A stretch of DNA of 64,000 bases from contig OZ005699.1 of assembly GCA_963930775.1 (NCBI GenBank), positions 4,919,501 through 4,983,500 on the forward strand. The letters run 5' to 3'. A program made the translations under genes and the position numbers. Below are positions 15,400 to 52,100 of the stretch, in pieces; the first letter of the stretch is position 1; the number at the start of each line of letters is the position of its first letter. Below the pieces are notes generated by a model, which made no database searches, had not been told where the DNA came from, and saw nothing but the letters and a program-made list of their open reading frames with translations. This stretch comes from Cliona cf. orientalis (Eukaryota > Porifera > Demospongiae > Clionaida > Clionaidae).

Positions 15400-16427
15400 A
15401 AAGTTACAGCAAAGAAGGTCGATGGCATGGGTAGCCCAAACACCCCCTCTATAAGATGCTGTTGCAGTCCTTCGCTCATAGAGATTTTGCTGACTCAGCC
15501 CGTGTTAAATCATTTGCACTGCCCATTACGTACATGTACACGGATACGTTGCAATTCAAGTGCATAGCCTCAGACGTAGTTGTCAACCACCCCGAAACGT
15601 CCAGAATACTCCTGGAATTTGGCTATGTCCCAGTTGTGTCCCGGATTACCCAATGGGTAAGTGCCCATGCATATGGGTGTTTAAACATAAGTCACTATTT
15701 TGGGTTGCGTGGGTGCTTACCCGGGATCAAAATTCCATACATTTGTATAGAAGTTGCTAGAGTGGCCCCTTGAAATGCAGTACATGGACAGTTACCTGGG
15801 CGTCAATTCTTGCTGTACCAAGAACTACTGGTGTATTTTTTGTCAAGAAAAGCTGACCATGATCATCAAGAGCTGCAAAAATAGCCCTAAACAAAGCGTC
15901 TCAGTCTAAACTTTCAATGTGCGTACATATATCTCAATGGAGTTTTTAATGTCTAAACCTTGATATCACATAGCCTCGAGTTATCCTCATGCAGTACCCT
16001 CTTAGATTTTCAGCTTTTAATGTTACTCTCGCTTTTTGCATGCAACATTAAAAGCTGGCCTGGGAAGTGTAAAGTATCACCTATAGCTATGTCATAGGCC
16101 TCACCTACACTTAGCCATTAAATATGATTATCATAATTAATTCAGAGAACTGTTAATTTTGATGAAATCTCATGCTTATTTCCTGTGCTGGAGCCTGAAA
16201 CAATCAAGAGGCACCCACATAGGACTGAATACTCACATAGAAAGTGACAAGTGGCAAAGTTACTATAGTGCAGCTATGTAATAATATAGCCTGAATACCG
16301 GAGAATAACTTCACACTTTCAAATTAATTTCGCTGTCCAAGACCTACACTATGAATCAAAAGTGTGTATAGTACAAGTATGCATATATCCTGATCAGCCT
16401 TGTATCCTAGGCAACAGCCATGGTATA
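15400..16427. other. No gene recognised
   Basis: Left flank of the transposon. A frame at 15456-15773 has no recognisable domain and overlaps a palindrome (TTACCCAATGGGTAAGTGCC). A minus-strand stretch near 15800-15900 looks faintly exon-like (it ends in a GTAACT donor) but could not be linked to anything. Confidence 0.4.
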
Positions 16428-16633
16428 AAGGGAGGGTTGCATGAAAAAATATTTTTTTTTATTTTTTTGGCTAAATAGGCTCCTTATATGTATATAATAA
16501 CATCCAGAATATTAAAAATGTTGTGTATGTCGTGATCTCTGAAATACTAGCACTTCTATTATGCGCTCTGCATGCTGCATCCGCTCGTGGTCGAATGTAG
16601 GTGTGGCTACGCGTGACGTCACTGAAGGAACCT
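16428..16633 (+). repeat. Left terminal inverted repeat
   Basis: Matches the reverse complement of 21124-21328 nearly base for base, from AAGGGAGGGTTGCATGAAAA to CACTGAAGGAACCT. Shared internal blocks include CCAGAATATTAAAAATGTTG, TCTGAAATACTAGCACTTCT and GAATGTAGGTGTGGCTACGC. Such a long repeat must contain the promoter of the gene starting at 16677, because the transcript can begin only about 40 bp beyond it. Confidence 0.93.
16614..16621. promoter_or_regulatory. TGACGTCA (CRE-type) site in the left repeat
   Basis: A perfect palindromic TGACGTCA, the consensus for CREB/ATF factors, 56 bp before the ATG of the P2RX7_C gene. The identical site stands in the right repeat before the transposase ATG. 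Function is inferred from position and conservation only. Confidence 0.5.
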
Positions 16634-16676
16634 CGCGTACCCGAATACTAGAGCAGTAGCCAAGTCTAGTCGATCA

Positions 16677-17482
16677 ATGGAAGAAGAGAGGGACGACTCT
16701 AGTGATCGCCGACTTTCCGACAGTCAAGACGGATCATCTGTTGATTCAAATGGTAGCCAATCGTCTGACAACCAGAGCGATCTCAGTCTTTCCTATTCTT
16801 CCTCGCCTTTTGAGGGTCACGGTGACGAGACCGATGAAGAGGAGGTTGAAGGGACTATTGAACCATACCTGTACGAACCATCTGCAAGCTCTAGTGGCGA
16901 GTCAGTTGATAGTGATGACTCTGAAGACCTTAGCCGTCTTAATAATACTGATTGGTGAGTGAATATCCATTGTTCAGTGGTGCAGTAAGGCTGGCAATCT
17001 TGTTATGAATTATTGTTTGGGGGTTTGCTTAGGTGTGAATGTGGAAACTGTCAGGTAATGCCTACTGCAAGGGAGTGTGTATGCTGTTGTGAGATGGATC
17101 AAGTCAACGAAAAGAAGCAAGAGACCTGGAGTGGTAGCGAAGTGGCATGCATAGTTGATCATGAAGGCTTCGAGTCGGTCTGCTTGAATGTGTGGGTGCT
17201 GCAGGCTGCCTACTTTGCGTACAGATATCACTATGGTGAAGTGGGAGGTCTAACACACGAGTGAGTGATCCTGTAGGTTTGTGACATTCTTAAGTTATCA
17301 AAAGCTTCTGTCTATGAAGGAGATACAGATTTGTTGCATATCGTCAGCTGACAGGGTGGTGTTGGGGGTGGCTTGGGAGGAAAATGAGAGTGATTCTCCC
17401 AAGTTGTGCAGTGACAAAAATTAGGAGTACTTTCCCCTCCGCTGCTTACACAGGATTTAAGTATCCAAATACTAGTACTTAA
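16677..17482 (+). CDS. P2RX7_C-domain protein, transposon partner gene (3 exons, 222 aa)
   Basis: Exons 16677-16954, 17033-17260 and 17320-17482 have GT-AG introns and join in frame. Residues 1-92 are an acidic, serine-rich leader with many Asp/Glu/Ser runs. Residues 93-222 match the cytoplasmic C-terminal domain of the P2X7 receptor (Pfam P2RX7_C). The cysteine cluster shows WCECGNC (93-99) and ECVCCCE (107-113), followed by an aromatic and Trp-rich middle (YRQLTGWCWGWLG), LPSCAV and the end YTGFKYP (212-218), close to the YSGFKSP end of vertebrate P2RX7. There are no membrane segments, so it is not an ion channel. In P2RX7 this domain binds zinc and guanine nucleotide; whether this protein does is unknown. 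It lies inside the transposon, head-in from the left repeat, and its stop is 75 bp from the transposase stop. A role in transposition, such as accessory DNA or zinc binding, is only a hypothesis. Confidence 0.88.
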
Positions 17483-17557
17483 GTATTGTTATTATTGTGA
17501 AAATGAAACCCATACAACCATTGCTAACATGTAGTTATTGCATTGTGTGTACCAAGT
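17483..17557. other. 75-bp gap between convergent stop codons
   Basis: The plus-strand stop TAA (17480-17482) and the minus-strand stop (17558-17560) are separated by only 75 bp. No canonical AATAAA is visible on either strand here, so the two 3' ends probably overlap. Confidence 0.7.
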
Positions 17558-18240
17558 TCATGAAATACCAAATCGTGATCTGTGTTGTTTTATAGCCGTA
17601 TCTTTTTCTGGCCTTTCATACTGGCTACACAGTGGCTGTGGAACCTCAGAAGGTGTTGCTACATTCCCATCTTTAAATCGCTTGATAGTTTCTTCAATGA
17701 GTTCATCCAAGTAACCTACGTATATAATATTATTGCATGACAGCTACATTACACCATGCTGGTTGTGTGCATTACATACTGACTAATAGTTCTTACCGTA
17801 TGTGGGGTCCTTAGTGACCTTCTTTACTATGTAGCCACCCTTTTTATATTTTGGGAATACAATACCATATCTGAGTTCTCCAGCCTTGGTGACAGCTTGA
17901 TCGCGATGTGCATTTTCATTAAAGTGTAATGCAGCTAGCTGTATTCTGACGAAATACCACATATAAAAATTAATATTATGTAGATATGTAATGTACCGGC
18001 ATTCCATCCCTAAATATGAGAATGCAGTCAATTTGGGGGCGAAGTGATTGACAACACATGTGGTATCACTCCAGTGAAGATGTCTGATGAGAGGGACACA
18101 GTCTAGCGATATCTTTAGTCAGATTCACATTTGTCAATAGTGGAGTAAGCTTTTTACTAGATTTTGTGTCTGCATAGAGAGAGGAAGCCATGACATTGTC
18201 AATTGTAACCATAATACGGTTGTTATACCTATATACGTAC

Positions 18241-18872
18241 GTTTTTTTAGCCATTTCTTATTCTTGTCTCTTCCTTGTAATTTCCCATGCAAGCACTTGG
18301 GAAAATCTTTACTGTGTCCGCGGTGCACATTGTGAAGGTGATTGTCAAGGGATAACCACTTGGCTTTGATGATCGTCTCATTACCGTCGGGAGTCGAGGC
18401 CACACACCAGTAGAGATGGTTTATGATACATTTTCCCCACTTTCCTACCACCTCACAGCCTTTCTGTTTTGCCAGAGCTTGAACCTTCTTGCGCAAACCT
18501 TATGATACCCAATGACATGTAAACATGCATGATGCATGTATTTTAAATTAGGTGCTGAATCAATTATAGCTGTTACGTACTGTAACAGATTCAATTCCCA
18601 CATACATGTCATACACTATGAACAGGGCATGCAATGCATACTACCCCAGCCATACATCTGTATATTATAATATTATATCCCTTACCTTTCGCGACGTGCC
18701 AAACGTCATAAAAATGTTGAATGTTAGGGTGGGTTTCTCGTAGCCACTTATTGATCAGTTTGTGCCGGTCAGTGACGATTATTTCAATAGCTACCTTTTG
18801 CTGTTTCAGGTACTTCATCACACGACATAGTCCCTCTTTCTCCATGTGATAGCTTCCTCCTACTTCATTGCT
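18241..18872 (-). CDS. Transposase exons 5-6: second Asp and D-x-W-H region
   Basis: Exons 18872-18686 and 18498-18241. They encode IIVTDRHKLINKW, HFYDVWHVAKG, then a region with NHLYWCVASTPDGN and NVHRGHSKDFP typical of the insertion domain of this transposase family. Both are open and in phase. Confidence 0.87.
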
Positions 18873-18877
18873 CTATA

Positions 18878-19540
18878 TATAACAAGTATGTTTAATGTCA
18901 CAATCATGGGATAATGTGGCCAGCATCCACGATCATCTATTAACAGTACATGCTCACAAAAAATAGAGACATAGTTCATGCACAAACAGTATCCTGCCTG
19001 GGCAAGATTGTCCATTAGTACCGTGCGCATGCGCAGATGGAAGCGGTTGCAGAGGCCACACCCCTTGGCAAAGCAAGCAAGTGTGCTATGGCAACGTTCT
19101 CGCTCTGCTCGAACGTTGCTACCGGACTACTGACAGGTATGAACAGACCTCGCCTCTCGCTTCGCTCGAGGCTCGGTGGCTAGCGCCAGCGCCTGCTTAG
19201 CAGGCCTTTCGAAACGCGCGGCGCTTTCGCGCCGATCGTTCGCCCGACAATGCGTCTCTAGCTGTAGCTATGGCCCGAGGCATTAAGGCCACTCTAGATC
19301 TTCTTTGTGCACACGGCCCTACAGTTCTGACCAATCCTGAGCCTTGTAGTGTTGCTCATTCATAGCAACCGGGCGCATCCAAGACTCGTATCCATGCCCT
19401 CATGTAATGACACGGACTATATAAGAAAAATGACCGTCTGAAAAATATTTTTCGTTGTATATAGTATAATAATTGTGAGGGTGTTAATTGAATTATAAAA
19501 ACATGATCTCCATGGCAATCACATAATAGGTAATGATATC
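18878..19540. repeat. Repeat within the transposase intron, second copy at 49135-49610
   Basis: Most of the intron between exons 4 and 5 matches 49135-49610: AACAAGTATGTTTAATGTCACAATC, GCGCATGCGCAGATG, the TCGCCTCTCGCTTCGCTCGAG block and CACGGACTATATAAGAAAAATG. It either inserted into the intron after the transposon arrived or is a family the element carries. A minor TATATAAG box is present. Confidence 0.65.
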
Positions 19541-19569
19541 CTATAGTGAACAAGAAAGTGCTTACACAC

Positions 19570-20116
19570 CTGAACTAGCTTAAAATCAATGACTTTGTTG
19601 CATATTAACTCCACCAAAGTGTAGCAACCATATTTGGCACTGTGCCCTGGACTATCTGCACGCCCGTCACCTGCAACCACCAATGACTTATTCTCATGCT
19701 TAAACCCACTAAGTAGTGCCTGTTGATATTTTTTCCATACGCTGTTGATGGCAGGCCACATGAAATCACTTTGATGACGAAAGAAGGCTGATCGGCTTAT
19801 GGTGGCACATTTCAAAACTTGAAACAGTCTGAGAGCCTTAGATGGAAGGGAACCAGTGTAGAGTATTGCGGATGACAGAAGAACATTTCCAGCCGGTCTA
19901 CTACCAACGAAAGGTTGGCTTTCCCATACACGCTTTTTCCCACAATCGTTACATGATTGTATTACTCTCAAAAAAGTTCCATTTACCACCTTCTTAATTT
20001 GCGTGCTCAAATATCCACAATAGGAACACACTTTAAAAAGAAGTAGAAGGGCTGACTCAAACACAATATATGTTTGTTGTGGTACACGTGCAAGTGAAGT
20101 ATCAGTAGCATCAGAC
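19570..20116 (-). CDS. Transposase exon 4: zinc ribbon and first catalytic Asp
   Basis: The longest exon (182 codons). It holds paired CxxC motifs (CSYCG, CNDCG), the conserved VWESQPF and AGNVLLS stretches, and DGRADSPGHSAKYG, where the first Asp of the DDE core is expected. Open throughout, with a clean GTGTGT donor at 19569. Confidence 0.88.
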
Positions 20117-20674
20117 CTGCCAGTATAGCATAATAATTATTATAGCATCAAGTAATGTGTAAATTTTCACCTACATAGTGCTTTCTTGAGATAGGTGTAA
20201 ACTCTGGTCCGTATGAGTATCTAGCTCTGACTCAGATGACTCGGCAAGATAATGTGGGGGAGTAGACATAGCAACTGGAGGCACTTCACACTGAACACTA
20301 GGAAGCATAGGAGGTAGCGAGCACTGCACACCAACATCTCGAGTACATACTTGCGAGCCCACTTGTACTTCTAATAATAATGATTTACCATCTCAGTGTG
20401 TATGTATGTATACAGTATGGATTATGGAATACCTTGAGAGTGTGACTTCGGCTTTATTTGAGTCCGGATATTCCTTCTGCATGGGCTGGCTTGGATACCT
20501 ATGCTCAGCTGTGATTATTCTATGGGTGTACTAGTGCTTGGAGTCAGAGTTTCAATATCAGCAGCCTCCTCAGGGTGGTTAGAATCAAGCAATTCATCAA
20601 CAATCTATGATAATAATACTGTTAGTTTTTGCCTATAGCTATCCTATGACAATACTAAAGTAGCTACTGCTTAC

Positions 20675-21070
20675 CCTTATCCTTTCTCGTTTTTCAGCGG
20701 CTCCTCGTGCACGTTTACTGGAGGTAGCAGCCAGAGGATCGGCGGACCTTTTCCGCGGTACTCGCTGATCCTCAGACCCTGAACCTACTGAAGACTGCCT
20801 CTTAAAAATTGTGGGCACAGCGTCTGGTTTAAGCCTTCTTTTTTTAGAAATGCCAAACGTCGCTGCTATGGCAGAATCGACTTCAAAGGAATCCTCACTG
20901 AAGTGCTCACTACAAAGAACAGAGTGCTTGGTTGGTGTCCATTGGGCACGAGTCCTCCTGACTTGTTTCACCCACTTTTCTCTGAGTTTTGGATCGGCAG
21001 GAAACTTGTGTAGACTTATACGTTCACTAGGAGTGCTGGAACAGCCAGCTGCAGCGCAGCGATTCACCAT
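20675..21070 (-). CDS. Transposase exon 1: THAP domain
   Basis: Starts MVNRCAAAGCSS and has the full THAP C2CH signature: Cys5, Cys10, Cys53, His56 (CSEHF), with Trp33 and the closing AVPTIF at 84-89. THAP domains bind specific DNA, here presumably the terminal repeats. The ATG is 54 bp inside the right repeat. A basic tail (KKRR, RKRS, KRAR) could be a nuclear signal. The exon ends in frame at a GTAAGC donor (20674-20669). Confidence 0.92.
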
Positions 21071-21123
21071 ACTGTACGACCTCGTGCCAGAGAGCTAGTG
21101 CAAGCGCCAATATCGCTGCAGGC

Positions 21124-21328
21124 AGGTTCCTTCAGTGACGTCACGCGTAGCCACACCTACATTCGACCACGAGAGGATGCAGCATGCACAGTACATAATA
21201 GAAGTGCTAGTATTTCAGAGATCACGACATACACAACATTTTTAATATTCTGGATGTTATTATTCACATATAAGGAGCCCATTTAGCAAAAAAAAGTAAA
21301 AAATGATTTTTTCATGCAACCCTCCCTT
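21124..21328 (-). repeat. Right terminal inverted repeat
   Basis: Inverted copy of 16428-16633 ending CATGCAACCCTCCCTT, then the flank TAAGGTTACGG. It supplies the transposase promoter region and differs from the left repeat at only a few positions outside A/T runs, which suggests a fairly recent insertion. Confidence 0.93.
21136..21143. promoter_or_regulatory. TGACGTCA (CRE-type) site in the right repeat
   Basis: Same perfect palindrome as at 16614-16621, 65 bp before the transposase ATG. Confidence 0.5.
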
Positions 21329-21331
21329 TAA

Positions 21332-49100: not shown

Positions 49101-52100
49101 ATAGTAATATTATGGCATACATTATTATTACAATACAAACAAGTATGTTTGATGTCACAATCACGGGATAATGTGACTGAACACTACTAACAGCATGCTA
49201 TAGTACAATCGAGTGCTAGTTAGTATAGTGCGCATGCGCAGATGAAGACCACACCCCTCACTGCAGGCCAAGAGTACTCACCGTGTAATGGCGACGTTCT
49301 CACTCAGCTCGAACGTCAAATCTACCACCAGACCATGACAAAGAGCAGACATCGCCTCTCGCTTCGCTCGAGGCTCGGTGGCCTGCCGAGCAAGCCTGTC
49401 GAAACGCGCGGTGCTTGCGCCGCTCGCTCGAGCTCGGGAATGCATCTCTATGGCCCCTAGGCCCTGGCAACCTCGTTTGTGCACACGGCACAACAATTCT
49501 GACCAATCGTGAGTCTTCTGAACTTGTGGGAGAGCGCATCTTTTATGCCCTCCAGGTTAGGACACGGACTATATAAGAAAAATGTCGCTCTGAAAAATAT
49601 TTTTCATTGTATATATCAGTCTGCAAGAAGGGGTCACGTTTTCCATACACTTTCTTATTTGTACAGGAAGTACATTGTTTACTTTGGTTGCCAGGCCATG
49701 GTAACGTATGTGCCTAGGGCTAACGCATTGCGCGAGCGCCAAACATATACGCATTCATGATAATATATTGTGCAGAGATTGCATGAACGTGATTGTATAC
49801 GTTTGCGCGTGTTTTTACGATTAATATTAGCGCAACCGCCAAAAAGGTCAGCGGGCCAAGCAGGGGTCAAGGGAGCCAGCCAAGTGCACCATATTGCAAA
49901 AATCAGGATTTGATACCAAAAATCTCTTACAAATAGAAACAATCAAGATTCAGCTATAACATATGTTAAACTACTGGTTGTAATGTATCTACACTGGTGT
50001 TTTTGAAAGATTGGCTGCTTATCTTCACCATGTTCAAAAATTAATTCTGAAAATGCTCCAGACACAAAAATCTCCAAATGTGTTGTATGAAGTAGATCAT
50101 CACTCACAAACTATCATGAATTGGAGTATGATGTTGGTTCTACTGGAGAGTGTTAGGATAGAATCTTAAGACATCCATTTAATCCAGCCATCAGCGTTGG
50201 GTAGGCTCTGACTGGGGGCCTTGAATATATATAGTGGAAATTTTCGGTTTTATGCACCTCACAGAGCCCAACTAGGGCCAATCTGTATCTCTTGAAGAAG
50301 CATGTTGTAGATATTATGGTATTGAAGTCCTGTACCAAGTTTTAGGTCCATCGCAGGCGTGCAAGTATATGTTCAAAAATTCTGAAATATGTTGAAATGA
50401 GGACCCCTGCAGATAGTGGCAGCAGCAGGAGAGCTGTTTTACACAACCTACATCAGGATAACTCTTGAAATGACTGCGTGTAGCTCATATTATAGTTGTT
50501 TCAACCAGTTCTTGGCTCAAAAGCCTTCGCACCGGCGTTGCTGACATGTACCGTCGACTTGAGTTGACCGCCTGTTCTGTCCGCCATGTTAAAATTCGCC
50601 CATACAAAATCCCCATAGTGTAAATTAACTTCCGGGTGCGTGATTCACTTCCGCACGAATAAGAAATTTGACCCCTTCATGCAGACTGTATATAATGAAC
50701 ACCCGGATTGGTGCCAAACCCTCGGTGCTATGAGATTTATTTCAAATAATAGTGACATACTGTGAGTCTAAAGGCACAGGTAGCTACAGCTGGCAGTTGC
50801 AAATTTGTAAGCTAAGCCATGGAGGCATAGATCTATGATAAAGCAACACTGTTGCTGTTGGCAGTGTGGAAAGAGTAGGTAAAGGTTGTCGAACTAAAAA
50901 GGAGTCTAGCTTGAAGACTCGTGACTCAAGGAAGAATAGTTAATTAGCTTACAATGACCAGTGATGAAATTATAAGAACTATCACTAGACCTACACACTA
51001 AATCTTCTTAAAGTGAAGCGATTGCATATCCACCTAGATCTTGTCAAGAAGCAACCCTTGGGACGAGGCTATTATCAAGCTAGCTGCTACATGCCTGGTT
51101 TAGACGTTGAAAGCTTAAGGAAGGTGCTGTTAGACTTCTTATGGCACTTTTAAGGTAAGCAATGTCTGGATTTCGTCTGGTGATATTTGCCGGCTGCCTC
51201 TGCCTCTGACCACGAGTGACTATTGTAACCCTCGCACATGCGCCGATGGTTAAATACATATATACCGTATATGCACCGCTCGTGTATGACTTCATGTATA
51301 AATAGAAGGCAGAGTATTGAAAGTCATGAAACTTAGCATCAGCAAGTAACACCAAAACTGGAGAATAAGGTCTTTTCAGTGAAATCCACATAATACATGC
51401 TTTTGAATGCTGCAAGGAACCGTACAAAACCGCATTTTGGACTCACAAACAAGGTATATATAGTATATATGTAGCAGTTAGCTGACACACAGAATGGCTA
51501 CAGTAACCCTCGCGCATACGCCGAGGGTTAATAATACCAATTCTTCTTCAATTTGGGAGAAATATATTCCTGTAGTAAACTAGTACACATAAAAATTAAT
51601 GAAAAATTAAATTTCTTACCTTTACATCTGACTCCAATTTCTTAAAAAAAGATTCCTTTGCCTCTGGTCCAATAGTTATTTTCTCTCCACTGGAGGTGAA
51701 GTCAATATCCTTCAATGTTGGACTCAGTTTGGCCTAATTATTACGCAGGAGAATAAAAATAAATGTGCATACATGTACAAGGTCTGTCTGTTCACCCAAA
51801 GAGGTGATTTTGGTGCTATATCTCTGGCTACTAAGCACTGGAAATATGTAGCTACATGCTTTTTGAGTAGCTATAATATGGAGTGTAGGAATAAATTAAA
51901 CTAACTAGCTAGCTAGTACTATGATGCAACAATCTACTCCTCACAAGCCATAATAATATAGGCCGGCCCACATGCATAGAGTTATAAAGTCTCAAAAGAT
52001 AGCACTAACGTATACTGAATCAGAAGGACCCATTTCCAAGATAATTGAGAAAAATAAAGACGTACAGTGGATGTGATTATTCCTACAAATATTATTTGCA

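Follow-up and report, generated by a model that had tools for sequence, protein, structure and literature searches.

The 64,000-nucleotide stretch of the Cliona cf. orientalis genome analysed here (the window; contig OZ005699.1, C11:4919501-4983500, in a searched assembly of 216.8 Mb) carries a 4.9-kb transposon at positions 16429-21327, which is very probably a Kol0-type Kolobok DNA transposon with KolX as its partner gene. This identification is based on the TTAA target site, the 5'-AG...CT-3' ends, the DDE/DxxH signature of the transposase and the presence of the partner gene. The transposase (minus strand) and KolX (plus strand) are convergent. That Kol0 Koloboks encode KolX was stated by Kojima and Bao (2022; PMC9587614), who credited Kapitonov and Jurka. 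According to the parts of that paper considered here, Kol0 elements occur in sponges among others and resemble the window copy in TTAA, 5'-RR...YY-3' ends, DDE with DxxH and a second gene, KolX, with the ballast domain; no essential difference was found. The same parts ascribe the P2X7 cytoplasmic ballast fold to KolX, derive P2X7 from a fusion with KolX, treat nanor as a probably domesticated KolX and assign the ballast domain of stand-alone proteins to Kol0 transposons. In our literature search the name KolX was found only in this paper, and no further paper tying P2X7 to Kolobok was found.

The inverted arms of the element (16426-16633 and 21124-21330) are 93.75% identical over 208 columns, the repeats themselves being about 205 bp long. 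A genome search with the left repeat revealed seven matches. Two are the ends of the window copy, four are the ends of two further full-length copies at C1:29.69 and C1:30.06 Mb, and the last is a fragment. Both sister copies are flanked exactly, reading TTAA, then AGGGAGGG...CCCTCCCT, then TTAA, and these termini agree with the 5'-RR and YY-3' ends of Kol0 (5'-AG...CT-3'). Exact two-sided TTAA was also present in further members (C2, C8, C5:6.21, C9, C1:26.79, C1:27.97, C1:22.34 and C3:8.08 Mb), and it was inexact at the window copy (ATAA/TTAA), C7:5.54 and C19; many other places had no element ends inside the stretch examined for target sites. Since the two sister copies show exact TTAA on both sides, the left ATAA of the window copy is probably a mutated TTAA. 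A P element, whose target-site duplication is 8 bp, was rejected because the duplicated target here is TTAA.

The transposase combines a THAP domain, a DNA-binding domain usual in the Kolobok superfamily (PMC6004289), with a catalytic core in which GDGRADSPG, VTDRH...DVWH and, in the sister copies, SSLES ahead of HFAPK supply the DDE residues and the C/DxxH signature. In the window copy the frame is lost at the catalytic glutamate or immediately behind it, a point through which both sister copies read. Between DxxH and E, where Kol0 has a zinc-finger motif, the Cys/His-rich exon 18236-18499 is a candidate counterpart. The best named matches of the transposase are from Halichondria panicea (48% identity, 94% of the query) and Dysidea avara (48%, 76%), and the Amphimedon queenslandica match is 43% over 98% of the query.

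The KolX product, spliced in silico from GT/AG sites and comparison with relatives rather than from RNA, is an open frame of 222 amino acids with 0 internal stops. It matches the P2RX7_C profile with an E-value of 1.3e-13 (51.7 bits, cut-off 23.5) and contains WCECGNC, ECVCCCE, LPSCAV and YTGFKYP. A phmmer search with a KolX query three residues short matched residues 472-596 of rat P2X7 (E 1.7e-4). The fold was assessed on an amphioxus P2RX7_C relative (P0001; mean predicted local distance difference test score (pLDDT) 66.9) in place of the window protein, and in Foldseek its predicted model matched P2X7 structures with a probability of 1.00 (best E 3.4e-5). In rat P2X7, guanosine diphosphate (GDP) is contacted by R546, H547, R574, R578 and K583, of which R546 and R578 are reported to be kept in invertebrates (PMC7016195). 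The arginine matching R546 is invariant in two alignments of KolX relatives (A1, 12 rows; A2, 14 rows), and that matching R578 is invariant in A1 and conserved in at least 90% of A2; in an alignment made by eye, the window KolX has F, V and S at the H547, R574 and K583 positions. Because the two arginines are kept in KolX relatives, a patch that binds phosphate may predate the P2X7 receptor.

The structure proposed in the preliminary description is borne out by these results, namely inverted repeats of about 205 bp around two convergent multi-exon genes, a THAP plus DDE transposase, and an acidic leader fused to a P2RX7_C-like domain with the four motifs quoted above. The inverted-repeat element stands as well, its ends being corrected from 16428 and 21328 to 16429 and 21327 (Table 1).

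Table 1. Features of the Kol0-type element in the window (positions are those of the window)
Feature	Coordinates	Strand	Basis or remark
Whole element, target-site duplication excluded	16429..21327	.	inverted termini; sister-copy flanks (TTAA)
Left target-site copy ATAA, one change off TTAA	16425..16428	.	sister copies have TTAA
Right target-site copy TTAA	21328..21331	.	flanking sequence and sister copies
Left terminal inverted repeat, starts AGGGAGGGTTGCATG	16429..16633	+	inverted-arm alignment
Right terminal inverted repeat	21124..21327	-	inverted-arm alignment
KolX exon 1, acidic Ser-rich leader	16677..16954	+	predicted from GT donor, AG acceptor and open 222-amino-acid frame
KolX exon 2, WCECGNC and cysteine part of ballast	17033..17260	+	PF20478 on spliced protein
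KolX exon 3, AYRQLTGW, LPSC, YTGFKYP, terminal stop	17320..17482	+	PF20478 on this exon alone, E 1.3e-8
Transposase, last conserved stretch	17558..17743	-	conserved in relatives
Transposase, segment with third catalytic Glu, frame broken at or just after Glu	17783..18257	-	comparison with sister copies
Transposase exon, Cys/His-rich segment	18236..18499	-	conserved in relatives
Transposase exon, second Asp (VTDRH) and DVWH (C/DxxH signature)	18684..18872	-	MULE E 2.2e-4, below cut-off
Probable nested insertion in transposase intron, foreign to family	18883..19464	.	missing in both close copies; like 49140-49615
Transposase core exon, first catalytic Asp (GDGRADSPG)	19558..20112	-	GDGRADSPG segment present
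Transposase, probable linker exon, open stretch	20171..20392	-	88-91% protein identity in two close copies
Transposase THAP domain, region of the first exon (3' edge unfixed)	20639..21070	-	PF05485 E 1.4e-21; first ATG of open frame at 21068-21070

Linkage of the two genes was examined across the genome. A search with the P2RX7_C family yielded 25 matches and one with KolX exon 3 yielded 39 (E up to 0.1, the last few weak), merged into 39 KolX places, while two transposase-core searches (35 and 37 matches) were merged into 32 places; all place counts are lower bounds (35-40 candidates were scored per search) and copies may have been missed. A transposase core lies within 8 kb of 28 of the 39 P2RX7_C places and the genes are convergent in every one of these 28, no other order being seen among core-paired places within this distance. 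The distance between KolX and the core ranges from 1.3 to 6.4 kb (at most 3.6 kb at 27 places, 6.4 kb at the remaining one). At six further KolX places (C5:6.21, C7:5.54, C7:5.62, C9:5.16, C17:3.39 and C18:4.18 Mb) a convergent THAP exon occurs without a detected DDE core. Neither core nor THAP was detected at C1:13.52, C1:32.70 and C1:33.50 Mb (5.0, 5.6 and 5.8 kb examined, respectively), and no core match was found near C11:3.15 and C4:5.11 Mb, which are weak KolX matches whose flanking sequence was not fetched. Conversely, KolX is present at 29 of the 32 transposase places (28 by the main count and C1:22.34 Mb by exon 2); the three remaining places, where 5.4, 9.0 and 5.8 kb were examined without finding KolX, match the transposase only in part.

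The six core-less copies (L077, L078, L079, L080, L084 and L085) retain the THAP exon and KolX. Because the main common pieces of L077-L080 are about 86-92% alike in the four pairs compared, these copies probably form a non-autonomous family that spread with the core already deleted. A lone open KolX exon 3 (L076, C1:13519952-13520101), 77% identical to that of the window and without a transposase match in 5 kb, is probably a fragment, and possibly in host use. P2X channel exons (PF00864) were found only at C10:212-228 kb (C10:212595-227697), apparently a cluster of several genes, and at C2:4.61 Mb (C2:4611609-4616151). The genome search with this profile gave no match near any P2RX7_C place, which is in line with a later capture of the ballast in vertebrates; on this ground a P2X7-type channel gene was rejected.

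Selection was examined in 16 of the 37 matched stretches, those with at least 90 KolX and 250 transposase codons; the C12 element was dropped, being split over two stretches. In 113 of the 120 pairs (those less than 85% identical) the ballast shows a median synonymous difference (pS) of 0.83, a median nonsynonymous difference (pN) of 0.26 and a ratio of 0.31, and pN is below pS in 113/113. The ratio between families is 0.40 for the transposase core (114 pairs) and 0.33 for THAP (73 pairs). Among the three closest copies the KolX ratios are 0.20, 0.40 and 0.40 (Fisher p 0.003, 0.048 and 0.048, the pairs not being independent). Purifying selection thus acts on both genes between families. The distances measured for the ballast correlate with those for the transposase core (r = 0.82, a value reached by 0 of 5000 shuffles), and KolX and the transposase are therefore inherited as one unit.

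These genome-wide data answer the checks set out in the preliminary description for the source genome: the repeat search revealed two more full-length copies, no full-length copy without KolX was seen, the genes are convergent wherever KolX and a core are paired, and the P2RX7_C frame is under purifying selection between families. A single-copy host gene is ruled out by the presence of P2RX7_C at no fewer than 39 places.

In a diverged group of elements (group B), some members differ in the N-terminal part of KolX. The group includes the copies at C2:4.155 and C8:3.438 Mb, which share 99.6 and 99.8% identity over two pieces that together span about 4.6 kb and whose ends form a 26-base exact inverted match, TTAA included. 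Counted from stop to stop, the open KolX frame measures 281 codons in these two copies and 347 at C1:1.68 Mb, and in these frames one or two nine-cysteine motifs precede the ballast, with the spacing C-x-C-x3-6-C-x3-4-C-x-C-x6-7-C-x3-4-C-x-C-x2-5-C. The nine cysteines are invariant across 11 motif copies hand-picked for alignment. The published CXC consensus, CX[C/H]X2-13CX4-7CXCX5-60CX2-4CX1-2CX2-15CXN (PMC3447885), fits 9 of 11 group B N-terminal regions, and our own CxN-ending pattern, with narrower limits overall, fits 10 of 11; these regions comprise three from the genome and eight public proteins, other relatives, mostly with truncated N-termini, being left out. The CXC-like pattern was found in 0/5 N-terminal regions of the window group and in 0/2000 shuffles of each. 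At least 15 relatives of group B KolX are present in public sequence. THAP was detected in 0/9 pieces of the group B transposase (four from C2 and five from C1:1.67 Mb, with incomplete exon models). Nine-cysteine order and a mostly CxN end are shared with the Zn3Cys9 CXC/pre-SET domains of MSL2, tesmin/TSO1, LIN54 and EZ, from which group B differs in the lack of a significant profile match and the window copy in the lack of the motif (PMC3447885). Since DNA binding is described for the CXC modules of MSL2 and of LIN54 (PMC3447885), the CXC-like module is the strongest hint, without proof, that KolX may act on DNA. No paper joining the CXC domain with Kolobok or the ballast domain was found in the literature search, and a CXC-like KolX is unmentioned in the examined text of PMC9587614, whose data files may contain it.

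KolX belongs, by sequence and by the predicted fold of relatives, to the same domain as the P2X7 cytoplasmic ballast (PF20478; PDB 6u9v and 6u9w), from which it differs in being free-standing, lacking the channel part and keeping 2 of the 5 listed GDP contacts. Stand-alone ZCD/nanor-type proteins (PTHR36981) have this domain too and are short with a variable N-terminus; they are treated as host genes by Rump et al. (2020; PMC7016195), and the string 'transpos' is absent from the main text of that paper. Databases list channel-free relatives from amphioxus, sea cucumber, molluscs, coral and frog under the name P2X purinoceptor 7-like. Of the seven named species with such a protein in the matches listed, three (Branchiostoma floridae, Lineus longissimus and Biomphalaria glabrata) also occur among 120 listed of 491 transposase relatives, an overlap that denotes co-occurrence and not gene order. 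The earlier suggestion that stand-alone P2RX7_C proteins may largely be the second gene of this transposon family is supported within one genome and had already been argued in PMC9587614; elsewhere it extends to species co-occurrence only. Viral carriage was rejected, as two scans of viral contigs, run with relatives' alignments, led to no confirmed relative.

A Kol0-type Kolobok would move by cut and paste into TTAA, and we propose that KolX serves as a zinc-stabilised accessory subunit beside the transposase at the transposon DNA ends, where it might bind these ends, help to assemble the complex or control the target. Sequence-specific DNA contact would be made through the THAP domain of the transposase in the window family, and by KolX itself through the CXC-like modules in group B. 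P2X7 would later have taken the KolX module as its cytoplasmic tail (PMC9587614). We give this subunit role an about even chance over its rivals. More tentatively, KolX might be a second DNA-engaging Kolobok subunit, the DNA-reading zinc module lying on the transposase in one lineage (THAP, with an acidic KolX) and on KolX in the other (CXC-like, with a THAP-less transposase), and the P2X7 tail might then come from a nuclear DNA-bound subunit. Several observations weigh against the accessory-subunit reading. In the selection data, constraint on the acidic leader is weak (ratio 0.68, 17 pairs), comparisons between families are limited by saturated synonymous sites, and among the eight closest KolX pairs listed there are two whose ratio of nonsynonymous to synonymous rates (dN/dS) is near 1 (1.04 and 0.92). 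When the three close copies are compared, no purifying selection is seen on the transposase core (pN/pS 0.64, 1.14, and 7 replacement vs 0 silent changes). The motif occurs in 4 of 11 group B frames (L012 (C2:4155122-4155967), L013 (C8), L016 and L019), the other seven being shorter (111-171 codons) and without it. The CXC-like assignment rests on cysteine spacing: Pfam gave preSET_CXC at E 2.7 and CSRNP_N at E 0.0075 (below cut-off) for group B KolX, and a PDB profile search with the CXC-like part gave a scorpion-venom inhibitor (E 0.45), then EHMT1 and snake phospholipases (about 0.47-0.5). In Foldseek, EZH2 came next after 14 P2X7 chains with the low-confidence group B model (mean pLDDT 53.8; E 4.0, probability 0.44).

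The selection observed on KolX would equally fit regulation or host evasion. KolX as a regulator that acts on the expression or activity of the transposase by repression or timing, for instance via sites in the inverted repeats, is a possible but less favoured explanation; the convergent order and the acidic leader would fit it, and the six core-deleted copies retain KolX and the THAP exon, as repressor-making elements might. However, a stop lies within the KolX exon-3 match in 5 of these 6 copies and among the KolX codons in 2 of the 4 mapped, which argues that most of them are not maintained KolX makers. It is rather improbable that KolX counters host silencing or DNA-repair factors, or senses a nucleotide as does the ballast of P2X7, which binds GDP or guanosine triphosphate; the conserved counterparts of the contact arginines R546 and R578 (PMC7016195) speak for this, whereas the substitutions at the other three contacts of the window KolX speak against it. 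Insertion of a transposon around a host P2RX7_C gene, or a single capture of one, is made extremely improbable by the pairing at 28 of the 39 P2RX7_C places, all in one order, and nothing was found in its favour; the distance correlation and the pairing published in other animals (PMC9587614) also contradict it.

Two side observations concern other sequences in and near the family. The 582 bases at 18883-19464 are lacking in both close sister copies and are related to window pieces 49140-49615 (49.1-49.6 kb), 35-74 and 317-389, and are for these reasons probably a nested insertion. A group B-like transposase fragment (L010, C1:27288000-27297000) has an 82-base piece of a window-family end about 3 kb away.

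That KolX is the ballast domain and its likely source is not new, having been published in 2022 (PMC9587614). The orientation, selection and copy linkage of KolX are absent from the parts of that paper examined and are supplied here, together with a co-inheritance test, in quantitative form for one genome. The pairing of KolX with the transposase offers an origin, already argued in print, for the channel-free 'P2X purinoceptor 7-like' proteins and for the tail of P2X7, and the CXC-like KolX variant, also added here, would point to DNA as the place where KolX works.

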